From IMG/VR virus record IMGVR_UViG_3300028284_000013, positions 1 to 46,375 of that record: 46,375 nucleotides of DNA, one strand, 5' to 3'. The position numbers and the translations under genes are program-made. This DNA is from a virus. Positions 12,500 through 44,851 of the stretch are shown in pieces (positions within the stretch are counted from its first letter, which is position 1; every line of letters begins with the position of its first letter). The notes beneath the pieces were generated by a model. That model was not told the origin of the DNA, made no database searches, and worked only from the letters and a program-made list of their open reading frames with translations.

Positions 12500-15400
12500 T
12501 TATGACTGTATTTTTATCATAGGTCTTATTCTATATGAGTAACCTAATCTTTTATTATATATCAACCTAAAATTAAGGGGCTTTTGTTCGTGCGCCTTAA
12601 AAGTAAAGTTCGTGTCATTTGTGAACCCTCCATCGTCTAGATTTGAGATACTTGCTGAAGATAAAACTTCTGAAGCTTCCCCTTTAATCCTACTTGTATA
12701 AATTTTAATCAAGTCCAAATTAAATGTGTTTAGTAAGTTATTTTCAACATAAAGCAATGCATCATCACTGGTTGTTGTTTTATCACCCGCAGAATTTGCT
12801 GCAGTTACAAATTTATTTATAGAATCTAAGACTCCATCTTGGCTTAATACACGTTTTATTGTTGTTGCAATATAAAAATCAATATAAACATATTTTTTAT
12901 CTTCAAATAACACAATATCAGTTTTATTAATATTATTTTCTAAAATACTATCTTGTTGTTCTTGTGAGTTTACAACATACGTAGTAAAATTAGTCATATT
13001 GTAAGAGTCTCTTACCTTCATTATAGTAGAACCTAAATAAGATCTTTCTTCTTTAGTTTCAAACGTTCCAGGTATAGCCTCTGTTAATCCTCCTGATAAA
13101 GATCTAGTATAATAGTTTTTATCCCAAGAAGACTTAAACACATTTATATCTTTCTTATCTATCGCAACTTCTCCTATTAAAGGATATAAAGGTAGTTTAT
13201 CAGTAGATGCCGATAGCTTAGTTACACCTGATGCGTTAGACTCATTTACTTTTCTATAGAAATGGTTTTTAATTACACCCCAATTAGAATCGTGAGTTCC
13301 ATCATCTTGTATAAATCCTAAATTAAAGGCAGTATTACATCTGTTGTACCTCTTGTAATAATCTCTAGCTAATTTAATCTCTTCAGCGTTAGTTAAAGAA
13401 TGTTTATACATTGATTCTTCAAAAGCTAACTCAGTTTGATTCAACGTTGTTTGAAGCGTGTTTGTTTTAAAGTGAGAATAAGTATCTGTAAAAGTTACAA
13501 CCGGGGTAGTGTCTACTGTATAATTACCGTTATGTCTAACTAAAAATGGATAATATGTATCTCCAGGTGCAAGGTTGTAGCCAATAGTACCCTGTTTTAA
13601 TTTAAAGGTCTTAGGTTTATCTTGATCAGAAACTGTAACTAAATTAGATTGTTTAATTATTTCAACACCGCTTTCAAACGATATTTCAAATCTATTATTT
13701 AATACCTCACCAGTTTCTTCAATAGTAGTATAAACAATCTCACCATCATTTAACCTTAATAAGTCAGCAACATTATTAACCGTCAACCTATCCATGATAG
13801 CCGTAAACGCATTCTTACCACCTTGTTTATATACATATTCAGCACTGTTTTGAACGTAACCAGCAATGTTAGAAACATTGACAGGGTTGCCACTTAAATC
13901 TACCGGACCACTTGCCAGAGTTATCTGGTTTTGGTCATCAATTGATTTAATTTTAAGAGCAAATGTAACTTGACCACTTGAATCAGTAACAGTAATTTGC
14001 AATTGACCAAATATATTATCTTCATCTGGACTAATTTGATCTAAGAATTGTGGAATACTACCTGACACATGATTAACGCCATTAGCCACTAAATAATCTT
14101 CGGCACCCGGGTCTGTAAAATTAATATCGTTAAGGTTTAACGCCCCAGTTAGGTTTATATCAGAATAAGAAAAGTCTTCCTCTTCGTGGTTCCATACAAA
14201 ACTGTGGTTTAATTCATATAAGAGTTTTCTATTCAAGGCGCCATCAATCCATAAATCATCTAAAGAAACTGTGATTAAGAATATTACAAACTTAAATTTC
14301 TTATTTTGAATTACTTCATATTCGATTCCATTAGTAGAGTTCCCGCCTCTAACCATCACTAACGTACTAAACTTATATCCATTAAAATCTGATGACTTAA
14401 CAAACTCAACAGCCTTAGGATTAACAAACTCTTTTCTATTTTTAAAATTTACTTTAATACCTTTAAATATAGTACTTGCAAATGAAATATCATTACCACC
14501 AGAAACAGGAGTATATTTCTTTTTAAGATTAGTCTTAATATACGATTGAATGTTAGATACGCCATTAATTTCAAATCCCTCACTAATCATAAATCTATCA
14601 AAGTAGTTATATGTTGTACTTTTAAAATGTGCAGGTGTAAGTTCAAATCCATCTAAGAAATTAACATAACTAAAAGTGTCGTTTAGTTGATCATGTTGTA
14701 AATACTTAGGCAAATTATCCATATAGAACCACTCATGTGTCATTCCTAATCTATCTCGACCATCTGATCCAAAATCAGGTGAGAAGTTTGTTCTACCAAA
14801 TGCCTCATTTGCATTTAAGTAATACGGTTGTTCTCTAACAGTTAATGAATCTTTTAATACCCACTTATTAATATTAGGCACTACTCTAGATTTTATAGCA
14901 AATTCTTTAAGGCTATTCTCTTCTAGTCTATCATATTCAGACCATAATTTAACCTCATTATATTCATCTAAAGTTTCTTCTGGTAGAATATCACTAATAC
15001 CTGAGAAGTAATTATCTGGAGATAAATCATAATCATTACCAAACACAGATAATGTATTTGTAGTACTTCTTTCTGGCTCATAATTAATACCAGCACTTGT
15101 TTCGTAATCTAATTCTTTAAGGTCTGAGTTTGATCTATCATAAAAATCAAAGTTCATATCGTGTATATCGTATGCAGAAAATAAACCTAGCCTAGCAATG
15201 TTCTCAGCGTAAACTTTATGTTCACCACTTTCTAGTGTGTTTGTATTATCCAGTATTATTTTCTTGTAAATAGAATTAGATCTACTAGTATCATCAACGA
15301 TATCAATTACAGTATTATACGTATTTAATGAACTGGTTTCTATCATATTTCCAACGACAACATCTGAGGCTGAATCCTTAGTTACTAAAACTGATTTCCC

Positions 15401-29750: not shown

Positions 29751-30023
29751 TTATCTAATATACTTGTCGTCTTTTTTAACTGTATAGTTCTTATATCCTC
29801 TTAGAAATCTATTACCTTTAAGTATGTTTAAAAGAGCATCATCTAAAAATGAAATAAAAGCTTCTAATGTTTTATTTCTTTGTATATGTTTAGAAAGCAT
29901 CCTCTTTAATAAACCAGAACTTTGGTAATCGTTACCAACATTTAACTTACTATCCTTTCTTGATTTAGCAAAATCATAAAGACTCTTTCTTTTATATGAA
30001 AATAAATCGTTATATAATGACAT
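29751..30023 (-). CDS. Small basic protein between gp6 and gp7-like genes
   Basis: 90 aa, strongly basic (MSLYNDLFSYKRKSLYDFAKSRKDSKL...KNYTVKKDDKYIR), helical in the middle (LKRMLSKHIQRNKTLEAFISFLDDALLNIL). Not recognised. It overlaps the gp6 stop by one base (TAATG) and is followed one base later by the gp7-like start, so it is translated as part of the wedge operon. A minor wedge or assembly protein is a reasonable guess. Confidence 0.65.
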   Translation of the reverse strand: MSLYNDLFSYKRKSLYDFAKSRKDSKLNVGNDYQSSGLLKRMLSKHIQRNKTLEAFISFLDDALLNILKGNRFLRGYKNYTVKKDDKYIR

Positions 30024-31852
30024 TATTTCAAGGCCTTTCTATTTCCAGCCTGTACCCTAGTATAAATAGTTCTAGGTACTGGCGTTGGGTCAAAGTTAAC
30101 AGACAACGCTGCTTCTGCATTAAGTAAAGCTTGGTCGACAATCTCATCACCATCACGATCTAACCATCCGCCCCTAAAGACTGCAACTTCTTCTTTTTCC
30201 ATAATTATATCACCCCACTCGTCTAGGCCTGCAACTGTATATGGTATTACTGTAGTAGGTTCGACATCAACAGTCCTAACCTCTTCTACTTTTTTGAAAA
30301 AGATATATTTTTGTTTACCGTTACCTATATCCTCTAAGACCACTGGCTCTTGTGGTTGTACTGTTGTTGTAACAGATTCATAATAACCCTGTCTTCTAGC
30401 TGTTTCTTCAGTTTCTGAAATAAATCTAACATTTACAGAATCAATACCTTCTACCTCTTCTAAGATATAAACAATATCAGACTTAGGAAGTTTATCTCTT
30501 CTTGTTACATTTAACATATAATCACTTACCTTCGCTCTAACATCAGTAAAAATCTCCTCTCTGGTAAAGCCTTCGAAATATCTAATGTTAACATCCATGC
30601 TATATTTTCTAACTTTAGGCTGAACAAATACAACCTCAGTTGTAACCATTTGTTGCCCGCTGTCTTGGATAACTTTACCCATTTTATCATATTCGTTTTG
30701 ATCAAAAAACATTTCATTCTCCGGAATAGAAAAATAATCTTGTCCTGACGCTAATTTTCTTTTTACATCTGGTACAGCAAAAATATAGATAACATTATCA
30801 TCATCTAAGTATTCATCCGATGTCGTGTTGTAAGCGTCTATATATGAAAATAAACCATATCTTGATAAGAAATACTCGTAATTATCCGGGGTCGCTAAAA
30901 CAAACGATTTAGATGCTAACGGAGTCATGATCTTTGTAAAATCAGTAGACTCTCTATCTGCTCCCATCTTAGGAGAAGATGTCATTGTAATATCTAAGAA
31001 TGCATTTAAGTCATGTTCGGTGCCTAAAGAATCAGTTCCTTCAGCTTGCCACTTAAAAGTAATATCTCTACCATCATCCATATTACCCATAAAACCATCG
31101 TGGTTTATATATTCTACTTCAATAAGAGATCCTAGTGGTGGTATTGCACCAAATGCATCATTACCAAAATAAACATCAATACCGCCAGAGATACCTGTTT
31201 TTAATAAATAACCCTTTTCTTTATTTAATAAGTCATATAGTGAGTTATGCTTAGTCCATTTTTCACCGTTTACAGAAACATTAACTTTTGCATGATCTGA
31301 TAATTTCTTTGTTTGTACATTAAAAGACTGTAGCTTCTCTCCAGTTCCGGTCAGTGTTTGTCTTTCATATTCACCTTGGATAATTGCAGCCCTGAGCTTA
31401 GTAATATTAGATTTTTCTAATCTAAATCTATCTTTAGATGTTTCTAAAGTATACATCAATCCATTTTCTTCACATTTTAATAATGCTCTAGCATCAATAT
31501 TTAATCCAGTTCCTGCTACTTTAGATAAATCAGCACCTGGCTTCCATCTAAATTCTATCTCGCCCGTAGCTGCAAAGCCTCTTGTAGCGTCATGCCCAGT
31601 TAATCTTGACATACCATATATAGATTCTGCATGTTGAGCAGTATATATGTTTTGTTCGACAATAGCATCTTCAATATAGAACATGATTAGCTCGTATAAC
31701 TCCCCGAATACAGAAATTATTTGAGCAAAAGGAGAAGCCTCTGTAAATAGAGTATTAGCCCTTTTGTAAACTCTGCTAATCCAAGTCCTTGTGTCAGTCT
31801 TGATTTGCCCGGCGTTGTTCCTAACCGTCTGTAAAAATTTTAATTCAGCCAT
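30023..31852 (-). CDS. 6: Baseplate wedge protein gp6-like (baseplate J family)
   Basis: 609 aa (T4 gp6 is 660). gp6 forms the ring that closes the baseplate wedges and changes shape when the tail contracts. Features: N-terminal helices with the PFAQIISVFGELYELIMFYIEDAIVEQNIYTAQ segment, AESIYGMSRLTGHDATRGFAATGEI, and the central VYFGNDAFGAIPPLGSLIEVEYINHDGFMGNM motif that is characteristic of gp6/gpJ proteins (loading strand plus tight turn). The C-terminal VRAKVSDYMLNVTRRDKLPKSDIVYILEEVEGIDSVNVRF matches the J-family end. gp25 lies directly upstream, as expected for the wedge heteromer. Confidence 0.85.
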   Translation of the reverse strand: MAELKFLQTVRNNAGQIKTDTRTWISRVYKRANTLFTEASPFAQIISVFGELYELIMFYIEDAIVEQNIYTAQHAESIYGMSRLTGHDATRGFAATGEIEFRWKPGADLSKVAGTGLNIDARALLKCEENGLMYTLETSKDRFRLEKSNITKLRAAIIQGEYERQTLTGTGEKLQSFNVQTKKLSDHAKVNVSVNGEKWTKHNSLYDLLNKEKGYLLKTGISGGIDVYFGNDAFGAIPPLGSLIEVEYINHDGFMGNMDDGRDITFKWQAEGTDSLGTEHDLNAFLDITMTSSPKMGADRESTDFTKIMTPLASKSFVLATPDNYEYFLSRYGLFSYIDAYNTTSDEYLDDDNVIYIFAVPDVKRKLASGQDYFSIPENEMFFDQNEYDKMGKVIQDSGQQMVTTEVVFVQPKVRKYSMDVNIRYFEGFTREEIFTDVRAKVSDYMLNVTRRDKLPKSDIVYILEEVEGIDSVNVRFISETEETARRQGYYESVTTTVQPQEPVVLEDIGNGKQKYIFFKKVEEVRTVDVEPTTVIPYTVAGLDEWGDIIMEKEEVAVFRGGWLDRDGDEIVDQALLNAEAALSVNFDPTPVPRTIYTRVQAGNRKALK

Positions 31853-31868
31853 TTATTATTTATCTCTT

Positions 31869-32225
31869 TTATCTTAGGTTTATTTGTACTAGATATTTAC
31901 TATCAATTGTAATATCAATATAGGCAATATCCCTCACAGTACCTTTGAAGAATTTTACATCAGCAGCTACCTTGTATTTAGTAGCCAGTGGGCAATAAGC
32001 ATTTATCTGATTTGTAATCATTTGCTTGATATTAAATTCATTTTGTCCTAATGAATATACCAAGTCCTCTAAATTACAACCTAAATCAGGAGAACCCAAG
32101 ACTTCAGTTTTTCTAGTAAATAAAATAGTTTCGATCTGAGTAATCAATTGCTCAATCTCACCATTATTTTGCAACTGCGTCGAGTTGTAATTTGGGTCAC
32201 CTATGTATTTTATATAAAATTCCAT
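31869..32225 (-). CDS. 25: Baseplate wedge protein gp25
   Basis: 118 aa (T4 gp25 is 132). GPW/gp25 family protein, which caps the gp6/gp53 wedge core and contacts the sheath. The family signature is visible: ILFTRKTEVLGSPDLGCNLEDLVYS at about 34-58 (helix, T-R-K/G-E loop, P-D-L-G-C turn), then the helix KQMITNQINAYCPLATKYKV and two strands, DVKFFKGTVRDIAYIDITI and YLVQINL. Immediately followed by gp6. The pair is the most conserved part of contractile baseplates, so this is a firm anchor for the region. Confidence 0.87.
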   Translation of the reverse strand: MEFYIKYIGDPNYNSTQLQNNGEIEQLITQIETILFTRKTEVLGSPDLGCNLEDLVYSLGQNEFNIKQMITNQINAYCPLATKYKVAADVKFFKGTVRDIAYIDITIDSKYLVQINLR

Positions 32226-32245: not shown

Positions 32246-33094
32246 TTATGAATGGAACATCCAGTCCACGCCTTCATCGCCTTTAATTTCCTCTATTATC
32301 GACTCTAACTCGGTGTCTCCCATGTCTTTAATAGCATCGTAATCAAACTCTACATTACCAGGTAAAGCAAACTTAAAGATACCTAGCTTGGCACCTAACG
32401 CTGATTTTACCTTGGCGCTTACATATCTAAAGAAAATCTCATCCGAGTACAAAGCGCAATCAGATATAGTTTCATATACATGTAAGATCATATCTCCCTT
32501 TGGAGTATCTCCTAAAATCTTCAACTCACCATTTAATCTAGTGTATTGAAAGCTAATAGGGTTTTCTAAAATCTGTCTTGACAAATCTGCCATCGAGGCA
32601 TTCAAGACATAATATTGTAATTCTTCAGCGGTTTCTGCAGAAGAAGAGCTAGTAGCTCCCCCGAATAACATCTTTTCTAAAGCAAAATCTCCACCACTTT
32701 GAAATCTTAAATCCATTCCTTGTCCAACTCCATTAAAGCCAGATGCTAAATCAAATACTCCAAATACAGAATATACAGCACCACCATCTTCGCCATTAAT
32801 ACCACCTGCTTTAGGTAGGTTTAAACATCTATTGTTTTTAAAATATTCAGATTTAAAAACATTTTGAGGTACATGGTAATAGTTTTCTTTTACAGAATCT
32901 TCATACTGCTTATAGAACCACTTCTTAGCTCTTTTAATAATATTAACAATTTCTCTTTGCGGTAAATTAACCGGAACCATACATGCACCTGTTAAGTCAT
33001 CACCTATTTCTGTTAAGAAATCATTTAAACAAGTAGTACCAAAGTCTCTTGGTGTACTTAAATCGTTAAGATTGCCACTTCTAATTTCGCTCAT
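32246..33094 (-). CDS. Virion structural protein, possible neck/adaptor
   Basis: 282 aa, no named family recognised with confidence. N-terminal helix REIVNIIKRAKKWFYKQYEDSVKENYYHVP and C-terminal segment EIFFRYVSAKVKSALGAKLGIFKFALPGNVEFDYDAIKDMGDTELESIIEEIK follow a pattern I recall from uncharacterised structural proteins of large phages, some annotated as neck proteins. A Ser-rich loop (ATSSSSAETAEE) and DTPKGDMILHVYETI lie between. Ends 20 bp before gp25 and starts one base after the amidoligase stop. Neck or wedge-accessory roles are both possible. Confidence 0.55.
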   Translation of the reverse strand: MSEIRSGNLNDLSTPRDFGTTCLNDFLTEIGDDLTGACMVPVNLPQREIVNIIKRAKKWFYKQYEDSVKENYYHVPQNVFKSEYFKNNRCLNLPKAGGINGEDGGAVYSVFGVFDLASGFNGVGQGMDLRFQSGGDFALEKMLFGGATSSSSAETAEELQYYVLNASMADLSRQILENPISFQYTRLNGELKILGDTPKGDMILHVYETISDCALYSDEIFFRYVSAKVKSALGAKLGIFKFALPGNVEFDYDAIKDMGDTELESIIEEIKGDEGVDWMFHS

Positions 33095-33095
33095 T

Positions 33096-34409
33096 TTACG
33101 CTTTAATTTTTTTACTTACAATGACTTCCGTATCATCTCCAAATCTAGCATGAGGTCCGACCCCACCCTCTCTGAAAATACCACCTTCCATCTTACCTTT
33201 AAAAATACCATCTCTACCAAAGACATAGCAATTCTTTAAAGTACAACTCCCATGGACAAAACTAGACTCAACTTTAGAGTCTATAATCTCTGTACCTTGG
33301 TATAAATTTGATCTTAATATATTACCACCTGAAACCTTACTTCCATAAAGTTCACAAAATTCAATATTACCAGACAGCTCGCAATTAACAAATTCAAATT
33401 CACTTAACAAATATGCAGTCTTAAACTTACCATCCTTAATTTGAACCATTCCAAAATCAGAGTCATAATTAATTACTCCCTCTGACATGCCTCCATTTGA
33501 TAGAAGTTCTAAGACTTTTTTCTTAAATCTATTCCAATGCACGCCAATAACCTGCGGATCATCTTGCAAATCTACTAGTATATGTATCTCGGGCCAATGT
33601 TTATTTACGGCAGAATAGTCTTTTAGCATTTCCATAAGAGGTTGATTCTTATGTAAAATCCTTTTCATTTCAATTTTATTCTGAGGAGTAAACGCTTGAT
33701 TAAAACAAGAATGCCATATAGACATGATAAACATTTCTGCTAAATGTAGAATATCATCACACCTTTTTTCATAATCTTTACCACCAATATATCTAAATTC
33801 TAGGTAATTGCTTTGAGCCTTTTCAAAGTTAATTCCGTAGTATTTAGTATTTGCAAATGTAAAATTATCTGAGCTAATTAGATTTTCATTGTAGTAGAAT
33901 GCTTCTTGCTTAGGCATAACCCATTTAATAGATTTTGCATAAGTAGAATTCTCTCTATTAGGAAAATACTTATATACCCTAGCTTCGTCAAATTCTAAAA
34001 TAAACTTTAATATATTCATTTTAGAGATCATCATACTATCTTCTAAAACCCCTTTAGCAAATGACATGTTTAAGTGGATAGATGCTCGGTCAGTTGTATA
34101 ACCGTTCTCTCTAATCCATCCTAACATTTTAATAATAACTACTCTGGCGTCGCGATACAGCATCGCACCTGTTACTAGCTCCATAAGTCCCTTTCCACCA
34201 GACATGTCTGGTTCAAGTTTAAAAACTTCTGTATTAGGTTGGAAATCTGAATGTGCCTTATCCTCTAATCTAATTTTACGATTAAGTAGCTTAGATAAAG
34301 AGTCTACTGTAGCCTGAGTTTCTAGATTTGAATAGAATTCAAACTCGATACCGATCTGTCCTCCGTTCAGTACCGAGATTCTACTAGAGTCTTTGTTTAG
34401 TTTTTGCAT
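33096..34409 (-). CDS. Amidoligase (glutamine-synthetase-fold) fused to beta-helix
   Basis: 437 aa from the ATG at 34409. A longer TTG start at 34436 is rejected because it overlaps a candidate promoter. The N-terminal ~300 residues carry the hallmarks of the carboxylate-amine ligase group with a GS-like fold: GIEFEF (20-25), LEPDMS (65-70) with ELVTG (77-81), TDRASIHLNMSF (106-117) and YLEFRYIGG (202-210), i.e. the metal/ATP-binding Glu residues, the His-Asn strand and the E-x-R strand. Residues about 335-430 form a repetitive, pentapeptide- or beta-helix-like tail (FVNCELSGNIEFCELYGSKVSGG...). Such enzymes form amide or peptide bonds; the substrate here is unknown. No partner amidotransferase seen. 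Placed between the S1-like gene and baseplate genes. Confidence 0.65.
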   Translation of the reverse strand: MQKLNKDSSRISVLNGGQIGIEFEFYSNLETQATVDSLSKLLNRKIRLEDKAHSDFQPNTEVFKLEPDMSGGKGLMELVTGAMLYRDARVVIIKMLGWIRENGYTTDRASIHLNMSFAKGVLEDSMMISKMNILKFILEFDEARVYKYFPNRENSTYAKSIKWVMPKQEAFYYNENLISSDNFTFANTKYYGINFEKAQSNYLEFRYIGGKDYEKRCDDILHLAEMFIMSIWHSCFNQAFTPQNKIEMKRILHKNQPLMEMLKDYSAVNKHWPEIHILVDLQDDPQVIGVHWNRFKKKVLELLSNGGMSEGVINYDSDFGMVQIKDGKFKTAYLLSEFEFVNCELSGNIEFCELYGSKVSGGNILRSNLYQGTEIIDSKVESSFVHGSCTLKNCYVFGRDGIFKGKMEGGIFREGGVGPHARFGDDTEVIVSKKIKA

Positions 34410-34434
34410 ATATAAGAGTATGATATTATCTTTC

Positions 34435-34444
34435 AATATATATC
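34435..34444 (-). promoter_or_regulatory. Candidate late promoter for amidoligase operon
   Basis: Minus strand GATATATATT, a one-base variant of the recurring motif, 26 bp upstream of the ATG at 34409 and 18 bp after the S1-like stop. Supports the shorter amidoligase start. Confidence 0.5.
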
Positions 34445-34461
34445 AAACTCTTCTTACAACT

Positions 34462-35766
34462 TTATTGGGGCATCTTTAAGAATACCTTCATAGATCCTTC
34501 ATCTATTCTAGTAATTTGAACAGTTATCTTATCACCAGGGTTAAATACAGACATAGTCTCTTCCCCAATTTCGCTAACATGTAGTAATCCAGTTATACCA
34601 TTTTCAATTGTAATGAATAAACCATACTCCTTTTTAGACTTAACGGTAGCTTCTACTACGCATGGAATTGAGTACCTTTGATTTATGTTTATCCATGGAT
34701 TAAATTCTACAGTATCTTTTTGAGTTAACGTAATTTTATTATCACTAATAATATCTTTAACTTTAAAGTTAATAGGATCTCCAGGTTTAATTTCTCTAGC
34801 TCTAAACTTAACTAATGTATCTTCGTCTAAATCATTGTTATGAATCATACCAGTTAAACATTTATCAAATTCAACAAATACTCCGTATTTTGCAGTTCCA
34901 GTTACATTACCAGTTTTATCTTCTCCAATAGTATCTTTTAAGTTTTGAATTGACTGTGGTATTAATGCTTGTAAATATTTTCTATGTGATACAACAACAG
35001 TCCCTCTTTCTGCTGAGAAACTAACCGGTACAACATAAATCTCTTCTCCAACAATAGAACTAAAGTCAGATAATTTATTAATACCTGCTAGTGAACCTGG
35101 CATAAAGCAATTAATACCTTGCACTGTAACTACATAACCACCTTTGTCAATCATGTTTTTAACAGTACCTATCCATGCAGTTCTACCTTCTTCGATAGCA
35201 TCTCTTAGGTCCATGAATGTTTTATGTTTCACACCACCTGTAATTGTTCCACTTAAAAGAGCTTTATCTTCAAGAATTAATACTGCAGTTTTATCACCAA
35301 CTGATGATGCTTTAACTTCGTCAGACTCTTTACCAAACTTAACATATACTAGCTCTCTATAGCCTATATCTACTGTTATGTAGTTTTGATCTATTCCGTA
35401 TATAGTACCATCGTGAATTTCACCTGGGTTGACGATCGGCTTAATATCTGTACCAAACTCTTGCATCTTATTATACAATTCTTGTGCATAGTCTTCCCTA
35501 GAGAATACTTTGTCACCGTTTTGTGTTTTAATATGTGGGTTTGGTTTTCTATAACGCGTAGGGCAGGTGCCTTCGTATTTGTCCCAGAGGAATTCTCCGG
35601 CTTCGTCATAAAATTCTGAGTGATCGTTTCCAAGATCTTCACTAACTTCTGGTGTTTTGTTAATGTTAGCTTCTTCTTGTGGGTTTATAGCTTCTTCTGC
35701 TATAGTAATTGTGTTTGAATTGGTTGTAGTCGAATCTTTACCGATTCTTTTTCTTTGTCCTGACAT
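34462..35766 (-). CDS. Ribosomal protein S1-like protein with four S1 domains
   Basis: 434 aa. An N-terminal ~110-residue region, disordered for its first half (Ser/Thr/Glu-rich), then with FYDEAGEFLWDKYEGTCPTRYRKP. Four consecutive S1 OB-folds follow at about 115-173, 195-262, 284-350 and 366-432. Domain 3 (GNVTGTAKYGVFVEFDKCLTGMIHNNDL) and domain 4 (EATVKSKKEYGLFITIENGITGLLHVSEIG) are textbook S1 domains. This matches part of ribosomal protein bS1, which in bacteria captures mRNA on the 30S subunit. It probably binds phage mRNA or replaces or competes with host S1. Alternative: an RNA-binding regulator not on the ribosome. First gene of its unit, behind its own late-type promoter. Confidence 0.85.
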   Translation of the reverse strand: MSGQRKRIGKDSTTTNSNTITIAEEAINPQEEANINKTPEVSEDLGNDHSEFYDEAGEFLWDKYEGTCPTRYRKPNPHIKTQNGDKVFSREDYAQELYNKMQEFGTDIKPIVNPGEIHDGTIYGIDQNYITVDIGYRELVYVKFGKESDEVKASSVGDKTAVLILEDKALLSGTITGGVKHKTFMDLRDAIEEGRTAWIGTVKNMIDKGGYVVTVQGINCFMPGSLAGINKLSDFSSIVGEEIYVVPVSFSAERGTVVVSHRKYLQALIPQSIQNLKDTIGEDKTGNVTGTAKYGVFVEFDKCLTGMIHNNDLDEDTLVKFRAREIKPGDPINFKVKDIISDNKITLTQKDTVEFNPWININQRYSIPCVVEATVKSKKEYGLFITIENGITGLLHVSEIGEETMSVFNPGDKITVQITRIDEGSMKVFLKMPQ

Positions 35767-36350: not shown

Positions 36351-36761
36351 ATGAGTAAATTTAATGTAAATGAAGTAAAGTGTAATGGAGTCGGCGGCTC
36401 AGGCTATCAAGCCGTTCTTAAACACAAAGACCAGATTCAATCTATTTGCCAAGAGGTTCGAGACTTACTCGGCGATAAACTCTGGGATAAAATGATTAAA
36501 CAAGCATCTGAAGTAGATACTTATACTGATTATCATTCAGGTATTAGATACAACAGCGTAAAAGATAATGCTTATAGATTGGTTACTGGAATTGCTGGAC
36601 ATGTATCTTCTTACCTTGACTCTGATGAACTAATTGAGATGCACGTAGGCGCCGTTCTAAACAATCTAACTATTGACGAAAAGGTTTATATGGTTCTTGA
36701 TGCTCTTCGTGACTGTGCGTCCGCAGACCATTGGTACACTTTCGAAAAGGACTGGGGTTAA
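36351..36761 (+). CDS. Plus-strand island protein 2, unknown
   Basis: 136 aa, not recognised, 3 bp after the previous stop, so co-transcribed. Mostly helical and acidic, with HKDQIQSICQEVRDLLGDKLWDKMIKQASEVDTYTDYHSG and DEKVYMVLDALRDCASADHWYTF. Its TAA overlaps the stop of the convergent 639-aa structural gene by two bases (both stops lie within TTAA at 36758-36761), leaving no room for a separate terminator between them. Confidence 0.75.
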   Translation: MSKFNVNEVKCNGVGGSGYQAVLKHKDQIQSICQEVRDLLGDKLWDKMIKQASEVDTYTDYHSGIRYNSVKDNAYRLVTGIAGHVSSYLDSDELIEMHVGAVLNNLTIDEKVYMVLDALRDCASADHWYTFEKDWG

Positions 36762-38677
36762 AATACAATAGGTACAAAACCTACCATCGGAACTGGTCCT
36801 GCGGGAGTTGGTATACCTCCAAGGTATAATAATTTAAACTCTAATAAATGTAACGCATAAGCTCCTGCTACTGCAGTTGCGGTTGCATTTGATGCTGGTT
36901 GTTGAGTTCCAGGTGTTGCAAAAGATTTACCTGTATTCCAGGCTCTTCTTAAATTATTTGCTAAACGATTTGCACTTCCATAATAAATTGGAATATAAAT
37001 TCCTGTTAGTGGTGCTGGTATTAATGCTGGTGGTGCAGATGGGGTTGGCTTAAATGGTTTAACAATACAAGCATACCAATATGCTATTGTAACTCTTGCC
37101 ATCATCATATAAGGATCTCCGCTAAATGATTTACCACCAGGAGTAGTTCCACTTGGATCCCATGGATGTCCGACTTCAGTCATTGGTTCTTCACAATTTT
37201 CAGCAGCTTTAACTGCACAATATGCTCTATGATACTCAAACTTATATTGAGTTCCGGCTTCTCCTCCAGTAAAATTATCACCATTCCAACCTAATGCTAA
37301 GAAGGCATAAGTAGGAGATGACTTACCCATAAATTTAAGATCATCACTTGCTCTAGCAGCTGCTAGTAATTTACCTTCAGGTGGGACTCTTCTCCATTTC
37401 TTCTTCCACTCATTAACCTCATACTTCTGTTTTACCCAATCAGTAGTCTTTTCATAATGCAACCCATTTTTCCTAAATTCACATTCTAGGTTATTAGTAA
37501 TATATGGAACATCGTTATTAGAACCGAAATTACCATCAGTTTCTCTAGTACCTGGATAATATGTAAATGTTGCTACTACATTCGATGTTAAAATCTTAGG
37601 TCTTTGGCTATCCTCTTCAAAGTCATAAGCCACTTGTATTTTATATGGATTAATAGGACAAAAATCCGGAGTAATATCTTTACCAGATTCATCCTCTAGC
37701 GTAGGGTATTCTATTTCATTTACTGGTCCTCTTTCAATTCTCTTTTTTATTGCAGAACTAACACCTATGTAATATCCATCATCTTCAGCTACAGGATGTG
37801 CTGCTAAAAGGGCATCTTTTGCAAGCTTAGATACATTATCAGCTAATTCTGTATATTCATAACCAGCATTATTAATATCGTTTCTACATCTAGTAGATAT
37901 ATTACGGTATGGCCTACCTTGTATACCATTGTAACCACCATAATAAGCAGTGGTATCATAATTAGCTTTACCTAAATGACAAACCCAAACAAAGTAATCC
38001 CACCTTTGCTCTCCTGTATTCATCATCTGATAACCCATTAAAATCCTAGTAGCAAAGACAACTTCTAATTCTCTTTGAGTTTCTTCACCTGTCAGGCATG
38101 GGAATTGATAAAACTTAAATTTATGTAGATTATAGTTTTGAATATTTTCACCATTCGCAAATGCATTAAATGCTTTAGTGTTTTCAGCTTCAATTTTAGC
38201 TAAAGCTTCTGCGTCTGGTTCTTTAACCTCTGGGCAGAAATCGGCATAAGCAGGATGAGACTCTTTACCCATCTCAATCAGATTACCATCCTCATCGTAT
38301 TGGTCTTGTAGAGGTATATCTCCCTCTCTTAAAAGTCTTTCGAATGCAATACCATACCCTTCTTTTAAAAGTGTCTCAGCACCCCCGTTATTAATATGTA
38401 ATTCCCCAACGTGAGTTTGTGCCATATTCTTTACAGCGTCTAAATAATGTTGAGCAACTTCTTTACCAAAATCATATCTACCAGAAAGTGGATTAGCATT
38501 AAAAGAATTAATATAATCTGCCTGGTTAGATTTTAATACGGCATTAGCGGGATTTCCAACTACAGAATCTTGCACCGGAAGCTCATAAGAAATACCAGCT
38601 CCACCTGGTTTAGTAAACTTCTGGCTTTGTAATGTACTTGCTAACGCTGGAATAAATGCTCCCCAATTTGCTGGCAT
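36758..38677 (-). CDS. Large virion structural protein (639 aa), baseplate region
   Basis: 639 aa. The N-terminus MPANWGAFIPALASTLQSQ and early segment GKEVAQHYLDAVKNMAQTH suggest an N-terminal helical region. The middle has Tyr/Trp-rich segments (TGEQRWDYFVWVCHLGKANYDTTAYYGGYNG). The C-terminus is Pro/Ala/Gly-rich and hydrophobic, with IPIYYGSANRLANNLRRAWNTGKSF and LGGIPTPAGPVPMVGFVPIVF. Lies 2 bp after the gp5-type spike gene and ends the hub operon. No T4 counterpart recognised. Possibly a baseplate peripheral or puncturing-device partner. Confidence 0.6.
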   Translation of the reverse strand: MPANWGAFIPALASTLQSQKFTKPGGAGISYELPVQDSVVGNPANAVLKSNQADYINSFNANPLSGRYDFGKEVAQHYLDAVKNMAQTHVGELHINNGGAETLLKEGYGIAFERLLREGDIPLQDQYDEDGNLIEMGKESHPAYADFCPEVKEPDAEALAKIEAENTKAFNAFANGENIQNYNLHKFKFYQFPCLTGEETQRELEVVFATRILMGYQMMNTGEQRWDYFVWVCHLGKANYDTTAYYGGYNGIQGRPYRNISTRCRNDINNAGYEYTELADNVSKLAKDALLAAHPVAEDDGYYIGVSSAIKKRIERGPVNEIEYPTLEDESGKDITPDFCPINPYKIQVAYDFEEDSQRPKILTSNVVATFTYYPGTRETDGNFGSNNDVPYITNNLECEFRKNGLHYEKTTDWVKQKYEVNEWKKKWRRVPPEGKLLAAARASDDLKFMGKSSPTYAFLALGWNGDNFTGGEAGTQYKFEYHRAYCAVKAAENCEEPMTEVGHPWDPSGTTPGGKSFSGDPYMMMARVTIAYWYACIVKPFKPTPSAPPALIPAPLTGIYIPIYYGSANRLANNLRRAWNTGKSFATPGTQQPASNATATAVAGAYALHLLEFKLLYLGGIPTPAGPVPMVGFVPIVF

Positions 38678-38679
38678 AA

Positions 38680-39396
38680 TTATTTACCTTTTTGTTGATA
38701 GTTAATATGAGTGCTAGATAGTTTTGCTACTGTTACTGGAGTAGGAGGCATTGGAGGACCTGATGGTCCGACACCTGTTGGATGTATATGTGCATTATAG
38801 TCATCTAATAAAGCTTGTAGCCAATCTTGTAAAGACTGTCCTCTTACTGCAGGTTCAGTTTCATCTGCTCCGCCCTCTCCGGTATTAGATACAAATATAT
38901 CACCACAATCCATAAAGATTTTAGCATCCGTTGAGATCTTAATAAAACCTTCTTCGTCGATTTGCATTAGAGGTCTCTCTTTAGCTCCAGTACCACGTGC
39001 TATAACTAGCCCATCTTCTGGTGAGTGATAAATTCTTACATTACGTTCTGCATCGTATACTAAACTAATTACATTATGTGGTTCTCCTGATGCTTCAAGA
39101 ATATCTGCTTTAAGTTCTACGTTCTGGTCTACTTGAAACCAGTATTCTGGGTGATATATGTTTCCGTTATCAAATCTTACCGCAACAATATCTCCAACTC
39201 TAGGTACATGATGAGAGCCTACAGCATCTCTATTCATTGCAGTTGCCCATGGAATAGCTTCGTTTGGAAGTTTATCAAATTTGCCATATACTTTTACACG
39301 AGCCCTACTTTGTAGTAATGGATCTTCAATATCAACTACTTCTCCTAGCCAATGTGCATCTCGTAAATTATCTCTAAAAAGTTCACTATTATTCAT
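38680..39396 (-). CDS. 5: Baseplate central spike, gp5-type OB-fold protein without lysozyme
   Basis: 238 aa, far shorter than T4 gp5 (575). The N-terminal OB-fold (about 15-90) has WLGEVVDIEDPLLQSRARVKVYG, IPWATAMNRD and VPRVGDIVAVRFDNGNIYHPEYWF, matching gp5/gpV. A short beta-rich stalk follows (AERNVRIYHSPEDGLVIARG, IKISTDAKIFMDCGDIFVSN), then a C-terminal tip with HIH at 203-205 in NAHIHPTGVGPSGPPMPP. In P2 gpV an HxH tip motif holds an iron ion in the trimer, so a metal-bound tip is plausible here. No lysozyme domain is present. Overlaps the next upstream gene by 8 bp. Confidence 0.8.
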   Translation of the reverse strand: MNNSELFRDNLRDAHWLGEVVDIEDPLLQSRARVKVYGKFDKLPNEAIPWATAMNRDAVGSHHVPRVGDIVAVRFDNGNIYHPEYWFQVDQNVELKADILEASGEPHNVISLVYDAERNVRIYHSPEDGLVIARGTGAKERPLMQIDEEGFIKISTDAKIFMDCGDIFVSNTGEGGADETEPAVRGQSLQDWLQALLDDYNAHIHPTGVGPSGPPMPPTPVTVAKLSSTHINYQQKGK

Positions 39397-40726
39397 GTAC
39401 GTTATCGTTTAAGTTACCATCCGGAGATGAATCAACACCAGGATCATGTATTCTATAATTTAAGAAACCATCCGGAGATGAATCAACTCCAACTGGATGT
39501 ATGTTTTCATTTATGCTACTTGGACCAGAATTACTACTACCGCCAAACAAGCCGCCTAGTTGATTCGCGATCGCGTTAATAGACCCTGCTTGTACTGCGT
39601 CTAAAAGACTTCCACCGCTAACACCATGTACGTTACCTAATAATAATCTACTCATAATAGCATCTTCAGCTCTATTGACTAGAGTTGATGCTAGGCCTGT
39701 AGTCCCACCGTGTACATTACCGATAGTACTATTATTTTGTAGAGTTAAAGAATTCTTAGCGCTATTGATTCTACCTTCAATACCTCCAAGAGCATCTTTA
39801 GCAGCATCTCCTATTTTACCTAAAGTAGCATCTTTAAGTGTGTCTTTAAAGTTCTGTCTAGTATTTGGTTTTGTATTTTCTTTATCATCAGCCTGTGGAT
39901 CAAATGGGCTATAATCTCCATCTTCAGAAGGATCTGTAAATACGCCATCAAATTTATCTTCTTGTACTTTTTCAATATTAGCTCCTAACTTTTGGCTAAT
40001 TTGCTGAACAGTACCCCATTTAATTCCAATCTTAGGTTTTTTAACTTCAGGGTTCTTACTTAGGTCTGCAAACATAGGAGCAATACTATCAATATCCCAT
40101 TCGCAATGTGAAAACTGAAGTTGTATAAATGGCTTTGCACTTAGGCTTAGCCCTTCATTTAGCTTAGTTACAGTTCCACCTTTAGCACCTTTACCGTAGA
40201 AGTTTAAATCTTTAGCATCAGTATCCTGTTGAAATGCTCTTACTTCAGATACCCAAACTTGCATTCTAAAATGTCTTAAGTTTCGTGGAATTACTTCAAC
40301 CCATCTTTCAAAATCAAAAGCTGCCCTCTTATATAAATCCATAAGACCTATTGCAGTTAATTCGACATTCTCTTCTAAACACTCAATCTCTAGTTTAGGT
40401 TTTTCAGAACCCCACCAAGGTTCTTTCATATCACCATAAGTCATTGCTGCATCTAATCCTGAAAGGTTCTGCCAAAACCATGGCATTTCCTTATTGATCT
40501 TCATTAGTACTTTCTTAAAGTTTTCTAATGCATCTGAGAATTTCTTACTATGCTCAGTATTTAATACTTTAGTTAAATAGTCATGTGCTGCTCCAGCAAA
40601 AAGAGGAGATTCCTGCCTAGCTTGGTCATCGAATACGAAGAAAAAACTAAGATAGGTCGGGTCCTCGTTCAACTTACGAAGTAACGATCCCTTTCTAAAC
40701 TCATTAGGTGTTTTAAAATCAGCCAT
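39389..40726 (-). CDS. Baseplate tube/hub-associated protein with repeated C-terminal tip
   Basis: 445 aa. The N-terminal half (about 1-250) has a tube-like mix of helices and strands (FERWVEVIPRNLRHFRMQVWVSEVRAF, FIQLQFSHCEWDIDSIAPMF), reminiscent of gp48/gp54-type tail tube extension proteins, but without a decisive motif. The linker (about 265-330) is charged and likely disordered. The C-terminal third has recurring x-(V/I)-H motifs: GNVHG twice, NIHPVGVDSSPDG, RIHDPGVDSSPDG and NVHE. The last two repeat units are also visible as a DNA repeat. The IHPxGV form recalls the spike tip encoded next door. Between the hub (gp27-like) and spike genes. Confidence 0.5.
   Translation of the reverse strand: MADFKTPNEFRKGSLLRKLNEDPTYLSFFFVFDDQARQESPLFAGAAHDYLTKVLNTEHSKKFSDALENFKKVLMKINKEMPWFWQNLSGLDAAMTYGDMKEPWWGSEKPKLEIECLEENVELTAIGLMDLYKRAAFDFERWVEVIPRNLRHFRMQVWVSEVRAFQQDTDAKDLNFYGKGAKGGTVTKLNEGLSLSAKPFIQLQFSHCEWDIDSIAPMFADLSKNPEVKKPKIGIKWGTVQQISQKLGANIEKVQEDKFDGVFTDPSEDGDYSPFDPQADDKENTKPNTRQNFKDTLKDATLGKIGDAAKDALGGIEGRINSAKNSLTLQNNSTIGNVHGGTTGLASTLVNRAEDAIMSRLLLGNVHGVSGGSLLDAVQAGSINAIANQLGGLFGGSSNSGPSSINENIHPVGVDSSPDGFLNYRIHDPGVDSSPDGNLNDNVHE
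39410..39500. repeat. Imperfect 40-bp tandem direct repeat
   Basis: Units at 39410-39449 and 39461-39500, 51 bp apart start to start. Each has TAAG, ACCATCCGGAGATGAATCAA and a ..CCA..ATGT end. It encodes the duplicated DSSPDG-containing C-terminal segment of the 445-aa gene. Confidence 0.75.
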
Positions 40727-40744
40727 ATATTATCTATCTTTCTT

Positions 40745-42250
40745 TTATTCTAAGTTCTTTATTCTTGTAGGCCATTCTCTTCTAATAAGAGTAACGATTT
40801 GTCTTAATTCAGCTTCCGGACCTTCAATTATGTAATCTATATTCTCTATAATATAATGTCCACTTATGAATCTATCCATTACTTGTTGTGCATCATTTGC
40901 ATCTTCTGCTTTTCCAGCACTAAATGGCTGATCTTTAAATCCAGCTTCTTCTCTTTTGTAATCACCATGTCTTGAAGCCTCAGCTCTTTGGCCATCATAG
41001 TGGTACATTATTACTGGAATCTTTGAAAACTTATATATGGATGGATTAAATGAAGATAAAGTCATTTTAACTTTCATCTTCTCAGTCTCCATTTGATTTT
41101 GCTTATTGTGTAACTTAGAAAAAGCTGCATTAGGATGGCAGTTGCCTAGCCCATCCTCACCTGCATTTTGTCTACCCATGTATTTATGTTTTACTTGAGT
41201 TTCGTAACGATTATCTTTTTCATTGCCCTTTAATGGAGCTTCAATATCCGGTAAGTTTTCAGATACTAGAGCTTCTACTTTAAATTCTTGTAATCTTTCT
41301 CCTGGCTCTGAATTATTGTCGTACACCTGAATGTTTCTAGCATACCCAGCTGCAAGACTAATTTGAGATGAGTTATTTATCAACTCAAACTTATCAACAT
41401 AGCAGCTCAACCCCATTGTGTCTTTATGGTTAGTTAACATTAAAGGTACTTCAATATTATCACCTTTATTATCTCCACCTTCTTCGGCGTCATTATCTTC
41501 TACCATACTAGCAGCAAAAGAAGTTAATACTGACATAACCTCATCTAGTTTAGGGTTGGGGGCATTAAATATTTTATTAATATTAACATAGGTCAAATAG
41601 TAATATTGATCTATATAGTATTTTGTAAACGCCTCATCTGAAATATAACTATCTTCTACAATATCTTTTATGAAATCAGCAAATGTAATATATGATTGCA
41701 ATCTAGGTTGGCTATCATCAGTAGTATCTACATTAGTTGATAAACCTAATTCTAAATCTCTCGCGATCAATTCTAAATGATTTAAAGAACTATCAGCATC
41801 TAATAATTGACAATCTTCTGCATAAAGTCTAGGAATCTTTGCAATACCTTCCATTGTAATTGTTGGAGGCACGCCTTCAACTTCTGGAGTTGTTTCAATT
41901 TCTATAATATCGAAGTCCATGTGAATAGACTTAAATGTTTCTTGATGTTTTGAGTTTAATAATATGGTAAAGAAATCTCCATCTCTAGGATATGATTCTA
42001 CTTGGAATGCATTCTTTTTATCTAATACAGTTATCGTACATTTAGGAACAATTCCTCCACATTCTAAACTAAAAGATTGAATATCAGCAGGGCCAAATTG
42101 ATATGAGTTAACCAGAACAAACGGTTTTAAAGTACCTATTGCTTTAGTCTGTTTTGCACCACCGCCATCTTCACCTAAATTATCTAATTCGATCTCAGTA
42201 GGTAGTATTGCCGGTTCAACAACCGCTAATAAATGATTATCTAACTCCAT
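40745..42250 (-). CDS. Baseplate hub protein, gp27/gpD-like
   Basis: 501 aa (T4 gp27 is 391). Hub proteins form the trimeric ring joining tail tube to spike. Supporting patterns: VNSYQFGPADIQSFSLECGGIVPKCTITVLDKKNAF (first tube-like barrel), LLDADSSLNHLELIARDLELGLSTNVDTTDDSQPRLQ (gp27/gpD-type insertion with the 'sly aDs' style turn), and a C-terminal GHYIIENIDYIIEGPEAELRQIVTLIRREWPTR strand pair typical of hub proteins ('V..I.......g....m.L.R..'). An acidic loop (VEDNDAEEGGDNKGDN) lies in the middle. Position between LysM/gp53-like and spike genes fits a hub. Confidence 0.65.
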   Translation of the reverse strand: MELDNHLLAVVEPAILPTEIELDNLGEDGGGAKQTKAIGTLKPFVLVNSYQFGPADIQSFSLECGGIVPKCTITVLDKKNAFQVESYPRDGDFFTILLNSKHQETFKSIHMDFDIIEIETTPEVEGVPPTITMEGIAKIPRLYAEDCQLLDADSSLNHLELIARDLELGLSTNVDTTDDSQPRLQSYITFADFIKDIVEDSYISDEAFTKYYIDQYYYLTYVNINKIFNAPNPKLDEVMSVLTSFAASMVEDNDAEEGGDNKGDNIEVPLMLTNHKDTMGLSCYVDKFELINNSSQISLAAGYARNIQVYDNNSEPGERLQEFKVEALVSENLPDIEAPLKGNEKDNRYETQVKHKYMGRQNAGEDGLGNCHPNAAFSKLHNKQNQMETEKMKVKMTLSSFNPSIYKFSKIPVIMYHYDGQRAEASRHGDYKREEAGFKDQPFSAGKAEDANDAQQVMDRFISGHYIIENIDYIIEGPEAELRQIVTLIRREWPTRIKNLE

Positions 42251-42260
42251 AGTTTATAGT

Positions 42261-43094
42261 TTAATTACAAGGTGCTCCGTCATTAGCAATGTCATTTCCT
42301 CCGCCAGTAGATTCAGGAGCTGTACCATCTGTTGATCCGCCACCGGTAGAATCTGCTTCACCTGCTCCAACACCAGCGCCTCTAGAAGAACCTCCTTGGC
42401 CTGCGTGGTTAAGTAGGTTATTTTCTAATTGATTTTCAGTAAGACTTTTTCCAGCTCCACCAGAACCACTTCCACTTCCTGATCCAGCTCCTAATGCAGC
42501 TTCTAAATCATCAATCTGACCTTCTAGTTGATTTATTCTATCTTTAACTAATTGATTTGATTGTGATGAAAGATCTGATAAGATCGACTGAGTTACTTTA
42601 TCATTCTGAGCTTGGGCTCCAAGTATAACAGTTCCTCCTTTAGTAAATTTAAAGTTCTTCTTCCCAAGAGCTATTACGTTAGGTGGTAATAATGCATCTT
42701 TATTATATTTCTTTTTGAGGGCTTCAATTCTATTCTTATCCTTTTGGCTAAGTTTTTTACCCTGAACAAATTCGTTTTTAATTTTATTGTCTTCTTCTTG
42801 TTGAGGTCTTTCTAATTTATAGAACGGTACCATATCGTTAGGAATCTCTAAAATCTCTCCGGGCTGTAAAGAAAATGGATCTGATATACCATTCCATTTT
42901 AAAACAATATCGGTTTTAGTATGAGTACCATAATGCTCTAAAGAAATTAAATCAGGTCTTCCTATTTCATCTTCTTTAACAACATGATACGCAATAATAG
43001 AAACAGCATCTCTATTTCTAAATAGCATGGTCGGCTGTGCTAGAATTAACTTAGCGCCAGCTAACGTTTTATTTAATAACATTTTTAAATTCAT
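42261..43094 (-). CDS. LysM-like baseplate protein (gp53 class) with coiled coil and Gly/Ser tail
   Basis: 277 aa. Residues about 35-88 (IIAYHVVKEDEIGRPDLISLEHYGTHTKTDIVLKWNGISDPFSLQPGEILEIP) match the LysM-like core of wedge protein gp53 and related baseplate proteins: a Y-G turn, helix, NGISDPF and PGEILEIP. A basic helical stretch follows (QKDKNRIEALKKKYNK), then a coiled coil (NQLVKDRINQLEGQIDDLEAAL, about 188-209), then a Gly/Ser-rich low-complexity tail (GAGSGSGSGSGG... to the end) that is probably disordered. The tail is unusual for gp53. Transcribed just before the hub gene. Confidence 0.65.
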   Translation of the reverse strand: MNLKMLLNKTLAGAKLILAQPTMLFRNRDAVSIIAYHVVKEDEIGRPDLISLEHYGTHTKTDIVLKWNGISDPFSLQPGEILEIPNDMVPFYKLERPQQEEDNKIKNEFVQGKKLSQKDKNRIEALKKKYNKDALLPPNVIALGKKNFKFTKGGTVILGAQAQNDKVTQSILSDLSSQSNQLVKDRINQLEGQIDDLEAALGAGSGSGSGSGGAGKSLTENQLENNLLNHAGQGGSSRGAGVGAGEADSTGGGSTDGTAPESTGGGNDIANDGAPCN

Positions 43095-43096
43095 GA

Positions 43097-44851
43097 TTAT
43101 CCGTGTCCAAAGTTAGATATTTTTTCTGCGAACCCTTTGTTTACATGGGCTCTATCTTTATTTCCATAAGATGATACATCTACTACATCATCAAGACTAA
43201 CAGATCCTTCAACTTCTGGTTGCAAATACATTCTACCTCTACCAGCATTAAACATACTTTCTATTTCACCCTTATCTCTAGGCCTTGCAGGTTTTAACGT
43301 ACATGTTAATTTTATTTTACTAGGAAATCCTTCATAACCTAAAGGTCCTTCAAATTCTACATTAGAAGATTGTAAAGCCAAGTTACCAACAACCATCATT
43401 GGATTCATCGGATTACCTACAGTCATGTGCCACGCACCTGTTGGATCTCCAGTTAAGAATGCATTAATAACAGTACCTCCTTGAGGCCCGTTCATTAATT
43501 TCATTAAACCACCACCGATAATGTTATCCATAATCTTAGAATCACCTAATGCATTAATTCCCTTTCCATTTAATAAACCACTTGCAGCTTTACCAATATC
43601 ATCAAACGCACCACCCATTGAAGATTTTAATTGACTAGTTACGGAGCTTAAGAAACCAGAATAGTCTCCACTCTTTAATTTATCATAATCACCAAATGGT
43701 TTACCCACTGAGCCACTTCCAGTATATCTGACAGCACCACCCCAGAAAGGAGCATTGTTATATGTTAATGCTAATATGTTCGACAGAGTGTCCATGAATG
43801 CCACTTTAGGAGAAGTACCGAAGTAGCCTCTTAAATCATAATGGAATGTCAATGTAAACTCACTATCAAAGTTAAGTCCTTGCTCTCTAGCCAATACTTT
43901 CTTAATAACGTTTAATGGTCCAAATACTTTATTAGGATATGTTTCTTTCATTGGATCAAAACCAGGACCCTTATCTCTAATTTGTGCAGATTCAGCAGCG
44001 GACTTACCACTAAGACCTGCTTCAACAGCACGACCTAATGAAGATGAATCCATCATTGCCCCAAGTTTACCTCTACTTGCTGCATTACCTTGCGCCTCCT
44101 GTATTTTAGATTCAACATCTTTCCATGGGAAACCAACGCCAAACTTCATAACCTCTTTCATGTCATTTCCTAAAGAAGGAGACATCCATGTTAAAACTCT
44201 AGCTAAGTCAGGTTGTGAAGAATCAAATTCAACACCATCACTACCAATACCCCTTACGTTCATAATATCATCTCCAGTCGGATATGCATATCTTCTTAAT
44301 GTAATTAAGTATTCGTTTGAGATTTGACCATAATGTTCCGTTTGTACAAAATCACTAAAGTTATATGTAAAACCTACACCACCTTTATTTTGTGCATATT
44401 CTACAATTCTTTTTGCAGTTGGATTAAGTATATTACGCTCGTCTCCTGCTAAAACAGATTTGTTATAGTTCTCATAAGCGTTTTTACCACCTGAGACACC
44501 AGAGGCAGCACCGTTGTAATTATGCAAAGACCACTTATTATACAATGATCTTACACCATCACCGACGTTAATATCTTTGTCTGGATCCTTTACTTTAAAT
44601 GTTCTACTACCAAAAGCATTTGTGCCATAGGCAGAAGTATGATCAGCCTCAGCATCTTCTATAAAAGTAGTAGAAGCCGGTGGAGCTGCATCGTTTCCAG
44701 CATCTTCAGCCTCATCATCGCCTATTACGCTTGATGCAGGTGTAATTTTAGTACTTCTAGTAGTCTTCTCTCCGGTTTCTAAATCTTCATAAGTATAAAG
44801 TCTCTTACCAGTATTAAGGAACACAGTGTCTATTAAAATGTAATCAGCCAT
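43097..44851 (-). CDS. Large virion structural protein (584 aa), baseplate region
   Basis: 584 aa. The start (MADYILIDTVFLNTGKRLYTYED) leads into an Ala/Asp-rich linker. The middle includes TLTFHYDLRGYFGTSPKVAFMDTLSNILALTYNNAPFWGG, and the C-terminal region has GAWHMTVGNPMNPMMVVGNLALQSSNVEFEGPLGYEGFPSKIKLTCTLKPARPRDKGEIESMF. That last block (W-H-x-TVGNP ... GPLG..GFP ... LK.ARPRD) is a pattern I recall from structural proteins of large myoviruses and fits a baseplate or tube-attached protein. First gene after a candidate promoter at 44873. Exact role unknown. Confidence 0.65.
   Translation of the reverse strand: MADYILIDTVFLNTGKRLYTYEDLETGEKTTRSTKITPASSVIGDDEAEDAGNDAAPPASTTFIEDAEADHTSAYGTNAFGSRTFKVKDPDKDINVGDGVRSLYNKWSLHNYNGAASGVSGGKNAYENYNKSVLAGDERNILNPTAKRIVEYAQNKGGVGFTYNFSDFVQTEHYGQISNEYLITLRRYAYPTGDDIMNVRGIGSDGVEFDSSQPDLARVLTWMSPSLGNDMKEVMKFGVGFPWKDVESKIQEAQGNAASRGKLGAMMDSSSLGRAVEAGLSGKSAAESAQIRDKGPGFDPMKETYPNKVFGPLNVIKKVLAREQGLNFDSEFTLTFHYDLRGYFGTSPKVAFMDTLSNILALTYNNAPFWGGAVRYTGSGSVGKPFGDYDKLKSGDYSGFLSSVTSQLKSSMGGAFDDIGKAASGLLNGKGINALGDSKIMDNIIGGGLMKLMNGPQGGTVINAFLTGDPTGAWHMTVGNPMNPMMVVGNLALQSSNVEFEGPLGYEGFPSKIKLTCTLKPARPRDKGEIESMFNAGRGRMYLQPEVEGSVSLDDVVDVSSYGNKDRAHVNKGFAEKISNFGHG

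Follow-up and report, generated by a model that had tools for sequence, protein, structure and literature searches.

The window analysed here, a 46,375-base stretch of virus DNA from IMG/VR, holds an open reading frame on its minus strand (33096-34436) that encodes a two-domain protein among tail genes. As the alignments of relatives begin at residues 6-10 (mostly 8 or 10) of the longer, TTG-started form, the most likely start is the ATG at 34409, and residues are numbered accordingly in the resulting protein of 437 amino acids. The genes and domains of the locus are the following.

30023-31852, minus strand: gp6/J-like baseplate wedge protein (PHROG 219, 3.7e-23; Baseplate_J, 7e-4)
31869-32225, minus strand: gp25-like baseplate wedge protein (GPW_gp25, E 0.0016, below cut-off; PHROG 43, E 0.0013)
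32246-33094, minus strand: adaptor-like gene, 282 amino acids (PHROG 211, 1.3e-10)
33096-34409, minus strand: amidoligase/pentapeptide-repeat protein, 437 amino acids (ATG at 34409; stop TAA at 33096-33098)
33099-33494, minus strand: pentapeptide-repeat quadrilateral beta-helix of that protein, residues 306-437 (Pfam, PDB profiles, domain model)
33498-34409, minus strand: GS-fold amidoligase domain of that protein, residues about 1-304 (model, Foldseek and PF12224 matches), with putative Mg, ATP and substrate residues E22, E24, D68, E77, H112, K135, R152, K189, N194, E204 and R206
34462-35766, minus strand: S1-domain protein, 434 amino acids, directly upstream (Pfam S1, 2.8e-22)
38680-44851, minus strand: tail block of g38.7 (gpV/gp5 OB), g39, g40.7, g42 and g43 (Phage_base_V, 3.4e-6)

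An earlier note on this DNA had placed the gene between an S1-like gene and gp25/gp6. The S1 gene is indeed directly upstream, but the gene directly downstream is the adaptor-like one, with an ATG that begins one nucleotide past the amidoligase stop, and the gp25-like and gp6-like genes follow it. The tail block also contains, flanked by the gpV-like gene and by two small ORFs on the opposite strand, a gene for a 639-amino-acid protein (36758-38677, minus strand) that has no Pfam or PHROGs family match and is present in some relatives and absent from others.

A tblastn search of phage genomes found relatives that match over their full length at 31-39% identity. They come from six huge-phage records of 462-735 kb that carry no annotation; two of these records have equal lengths and match at an identical position. 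Salicola phage SCTP-2 gave only a weak, partial match. The 735-kb record is LR756501; the paper on huge phages has a genome of 735 kb and assigns to the Mahaphage clade those of its genomes that exceed 634 kb (PMC7162821). Scans of IMG/VR found relatives on at least 487 contigs. The GTDB genomes yielded three loci only, one on a 254-kb contig beside another large ORF and the others on contigs of 4-6 kb, which are most simply explained as phage contigs in MAGs; thus, the family is viral, and its origin in a bacterial host was rejected. Each of 11 matching records has one full-length copy of the amidoligase. The fetched loci supplied 184 distinct full-length proteins for an alignment, and 69 representatives were left after clustering at 80% identity; the counts of members with Pfam and PDB profile matches are taken over an alignment of 64 members. 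One member of the family has already been deposited without a name: A0A6J5PQ40 of an uncultured Caudovirales phage ("uncharacterized protein") has the same two-domain length, is a full-length structural match (TM 0.85, 23% identity), and is unannotated.

When the window protein was searched as a single sequence against Pfam and PDB, it returned no match, to Amidoligase_2 (PF12224) or otherwise; the sequence signal is seen only through its relatives. In the HMM search that the earlier note had proposed, Amidoligase_2 was matched by 20 of the 64 members at E values up to 1 (best 1.8e-7); most members score under the curated Pfam cut-off of 22 bits, but a relative on a MAG contig (L289) reaches 38.6 bits over profile positions 2-224 of 245. 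Profile comparison by hhalign with 12 bacterial Amidoligase_2 proteins gave a weak match that falls in the right place (62% probability, E 7.4e-5, only 54 columns), and hhalign against the single E. coli GshA sequence gave none. An AlphaFold2 model of the full protein (pLDDT 92.6, pTM 0.83) has the GS fold, the absence of which would have counted against the assignment. In PDB, Foldseek pairs it with GshAB (E 2.1e-4) and with glutamine synthetases, at a probability of 0.97-1.0 for the best eleven but with low TM-scores of 0.21-0.29; in BFVD, A0A6J5PQ40 is followed by dozens of annotated phage amidoligases (E 4.5e-12 to about 1e-5), with which the fold is shared. It is well supported that the N-terminal half is a divergent Amidoligase_2-like carboxylate-amine ligase of the GS fold. 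Like the phage amidoligases of Amidoligase_2 (for example A0A6J5L6S9 and A0A2L0UZM1 of Atu_ph07), it has the motif order G-x-E-x-E, D/E then an E strand, H-x-N and an E-x-R-like end; unlike them, its family adds a C-terminal pentapeptide helix and a setting in a tail operon, has complete relatives that lack a GATase_6 partner, and mostly falls below the Pfam cut-off. Glutamine synthetase and gamma-glutamylcysteine ligase/GshAB have the catalytic fold in common with the window protein, but not at the level of sequence in the case of GshA, and the window family lacks their accessory domains.

The four signature segments of GS-fold ligases that the earlier note had read in this gene are all found: GIEFEF (20-25), EPDMS with ELVTG (66-70 and 77-81), SIHLNM (110-115) and YLEFRYIGG (202-210). 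Residues D68, S70, G72, E77, K135, E142, R152, Y157, K189, Y190, G192, N194, E204, R206 and Y207 are the same in 184 of 184 relatives, and G20, E22 and E24 in 183 (one gap), so the loss of glutamates in homologues, anticipated as a possible objection, is not seen at E22, E24, E77 or E204. H112 is His in 179 relatives and Gln in five; this substitution in the SIHLN motif occurs in L184, L195, L196, L197 and L161, and also in L290, with the other putative catalytic residues kept. Acidic metal ligands and an active-site His and Arg are thus conserved as in a GS-fold ligase, and conservation in so many distinct full-length relatives means that the motifs are not due to chance. The order of conserved residues is that of the metal and substrate ligands of GS-fold ligases, and the spacing of the metal-binding acidic residues and the His is the same as in E. 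coli GshA. As relatives of roughly 30-85% identity show virtually no change in the putative metal, ATP and substrate residues, the window protein is predicted to be catalytically active.

The beta-helix-like C-terminus that had been described from the sequence is borne out by the full model and by a separate model of the C-terminal domain (pLDDT 94.0), but it is of a different kind from the helices of virion fibres: it is a quadrilateral pentapeptide-repeat helix. In the AlphaFold2 model its strands come at five-residue intervals (353, 358, 363, 368, 374, 379); Pentapeptide_4 is matched by 33 of the 64 members, and the PDB profile matches are AlbG (McbG-like), MfpA and Qnr. Foldseek with the domain model placed AlbG, QnrB1 and MfpA among the top matches and also matched Rfr23, most fold matches being pentapeptide proteins and SV2 luminal domains. 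AlbG, MfpA, Qnr and HalA share with it the five-residue strand periodicity and the Pfam, PDB profile and fold matches, but the window helix is short (about 12-13 small strands), is always fused to an amidoligase, and closes with a motif of its own, GGIFRxG, nearly invariant in the family as GG-I/V-FR-x-G. The C-terminus is not an ordinary extension of the catalytic domain.

Both halves are present in 280 of 281 proteins, and the only ORF with the N-terminal half alone is an 88-amino-acid fragment of a broken gene; among the ORFs of the fetched loci, neither half was found by itself. Thus, the tail is a defining part of the family. All 280 relatives with adequate coverage show the same fusion, for which reason a recent fusion was rejected, and the view of the tail as an unusual local addition gives way to one in which it characterizes the whole subfamily. 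In two huge phages there is a further amidoligase-like gene, without the C-terminal tail, at a site remote from the tail block (L474:3254-4348, minus strand, E 5.5e-5; L475:3032-3889, plus strand, E 1.2e-4). Salicola phage SCTP-2 has adjacent paralogous amidoligase-like genes, gp125 and gp124 (L006:11077-12897 and 12894-14837, plus strand), in which a long insert separates the first motif from the rest and which have no pentapeptide tail. Many unrelated ORFs share an N-terminal peptide such as MKYILEYEEFLLE or MKHIRQFESY (L001, L003 and L474; LR756500 and LR756502). It occurs in 6 of 29 ORFs of L001, 3 of 21 of L003 and 3 of 12 of L474, and at no internal Met codon in these three loci; the W03 copy of the tail-less gene starts with MKHIIKFSLFEE, which is loosely like it. 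The peptide resembles the capsid-targeting peptide of T4 internal proteins, and it may mark proteins that are packed in the head.

The setting in a tail operon, already noticed from the window, proved to be very strongly conserved. Throughout the window lineage, with divergence to about 30%, the order S1, amidoligase, adaptor-like, gp25-like, gp6-like is constant, and the S1 gene is present in all 70 loci with room for it. Scans were begun from the adaptor gene so that they would not be selected for the amidoligase: the latter lies within the 3-kb upstream flank on the same strand in 80 of 80 loci. A more distant scan placed it immediately upstream, again on the same strand, in 78 of 78 testable loci, a tally that leaves out two further contigs that begin inside the adaptor. 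The two scans together give 158 of 158 loci, some contigs possibly being common to both. In the Mahaphage-type lineage (31 of the 69 representatives), gene order and orientation differ from those of the window lineage, and the frequent neighbours C3, C4, C7, C19 and C20 are homologues of the sheath/hub genes g43, g42, gpV, g39 and g40.7 respectively (97-100% probability by hhalign against the window tail genes). In the Mahaphage-type records examined, no S1 match adjoins the amidoligase. The nearest one lies at a distance of about 23 kb in LR756502 and about 48 kb in LR756504; in LR745206 the gap is about 86 kb, and in LR756501 it exceeds 400 kb. Since the far lineage keeps the tail homologues but not an adjoining S1 gene, linkage to the tail block is old and adjacency to S1 is lineage-specific, and partnership with S1 was rejected as a general rule. 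The amidoligase gene is a fixed part of a huge-phage tail block.

The explanation preferred here, tentatively and at somewhat less than an even chance, is that the protein works as an ATP-dependent ligase, docks through its pentapeptide helix, and either amidates a tail or baseplate protein or joins it by an isopeptide bond. The amidoligase would use ATP-Mg to phosphorylate a carboxylate, be it a C-terminus or the side chain of Glu or Asp, and would then form an amide or isopeptide bond with an amine, while the helix would be a rigid docking module that delivers the enzyme to the protein it acts on. Given the fixed place of the gene in the tail block, the most likely target would be a tail or baseplate protein produced simultaneously, and the enzyme would serve in tail maturation or cross-linking. 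Modification of a tail protein is the best-supported reading, and what points to it is linkage to structural genes, which could also reflect nothing but shared late expression. A Pup-like donor or a conserved C-terminal acceptor tail was sought in the proteins of the block, but none stood out when their C-termini were scanned.

Modification of the host envelope (for example of peptidoglycan stem peptides), which would block superinfection or ease entry or lysis, is an unlikely alternative. Known phage GS-fold amidoligases belong to a cassette for which the synthesis of unusual linkages in peptidoglycan has been proposed (PMC5498523), an amidoligase cassette is found in the LUZ24-like gene set (PMC3890496), and in the far lineage the tail genes near the amidoligase carry envelope-active VanY and chitinase-like domains. 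However, the podovirus cassettes proposed to act on peptidoglycan have GATase_6 and COOH-NH2_lig as partners (PMC5498523, PMC3890496), the cassette of UFV-P2 is an early module (PMC3890496), and the window gene lies inside the tail block. GATase_6, the customary partner, is missing from all six whole genomes searched, by a search that detected 14 of 14 controls; COOH-NH2_lig was likewise not found, an absence that is unproven because its positive control also went undetected. No co-encoded cassette of this kind was thus seen.

That the protein resides in the virion or is injected with the DNA and acts at the start of infection, mounted on the baseplate by its helix, is distinctly improbable. 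The fixed place of the gene among baseplate genes is in keeping with it, and beta-helices are common in phage tail parts. The C-terminal domain, however, turned up in no further ORF of the window or the fetched loci and so is no anchor common to virion proteins. In structure it is related to soluble pentapeptide proteins with regulatory functions, and the single phage tailspike among its fold matches is weak and low-ranked. A literature search found no proteomics of the particles; a single paper names the gene, and only in a figure list. RimK glutamylates S6, and by that precedent the enzyme might modify translation components, with the S1-like neighbour as partner or target; an S1 gene directly upstream in every window-lineage locus with room for it suits this proposal, but the tail linkage persists in Mahaphage-type records that have no adjoining S1, and it is given little probability. 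It is very improbable that the pentapeptide domain has the main function, as a DNA mimic that binds gyrase or another DNA enzyme like MfpA and Qnr, with the ligase as accessory: AlbG, QnrB1 and MfpA are the best structural and profile matches of the tail, but pentapeptide repeats serve generally as a scaffold, conservation is higher in the ligase half than in the helix, and a tail operon does not suggest gyrase. That the GS fold has lost catalysis and become a structural part of the tail is likewise very improbable: the operon position and the failure of the window protein to reach Amidoligase_2 detection would fit, but hardly the near-invariance of its metal, ATP and substrate residues.

Both domains are of known kinds; their family-wide pairing, fixed in a tail operon, appears to be new. 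The Amidoligase_2 and phage GS-fold amidoligases were reportedly surveyed by Iyer et al. in 2009, and a literature search that did not extend to that survey returned no relevant paper on an amidoligase with a pentapeptide repeat. The gene is a conserved marker for a group of huge phages. Tail modification by a docked ligase, the preferred reading, might be extended to Mahaphage-type huge phages and their relatives from the sea, in which a dedicated and essentially universal tail-maturation ligase would place an amide or isopeptide bond on a baseplate or sheath protein with the helix as template, a proposal that is possible but doubtful. If a tail-maturation ligase is indeed present, it would represent a post-translational step of tail assembly that has not been described before. 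The substrates of phage amidoligases are largely unknown, and an enzyme that in widespread huge phages is encoded in one copy, linked to tail genes and universally fused narrows the search to a few co-encoded tail proteins, so that the question of its substrate becomes testable by mass spectrometry of particles or infected cells.
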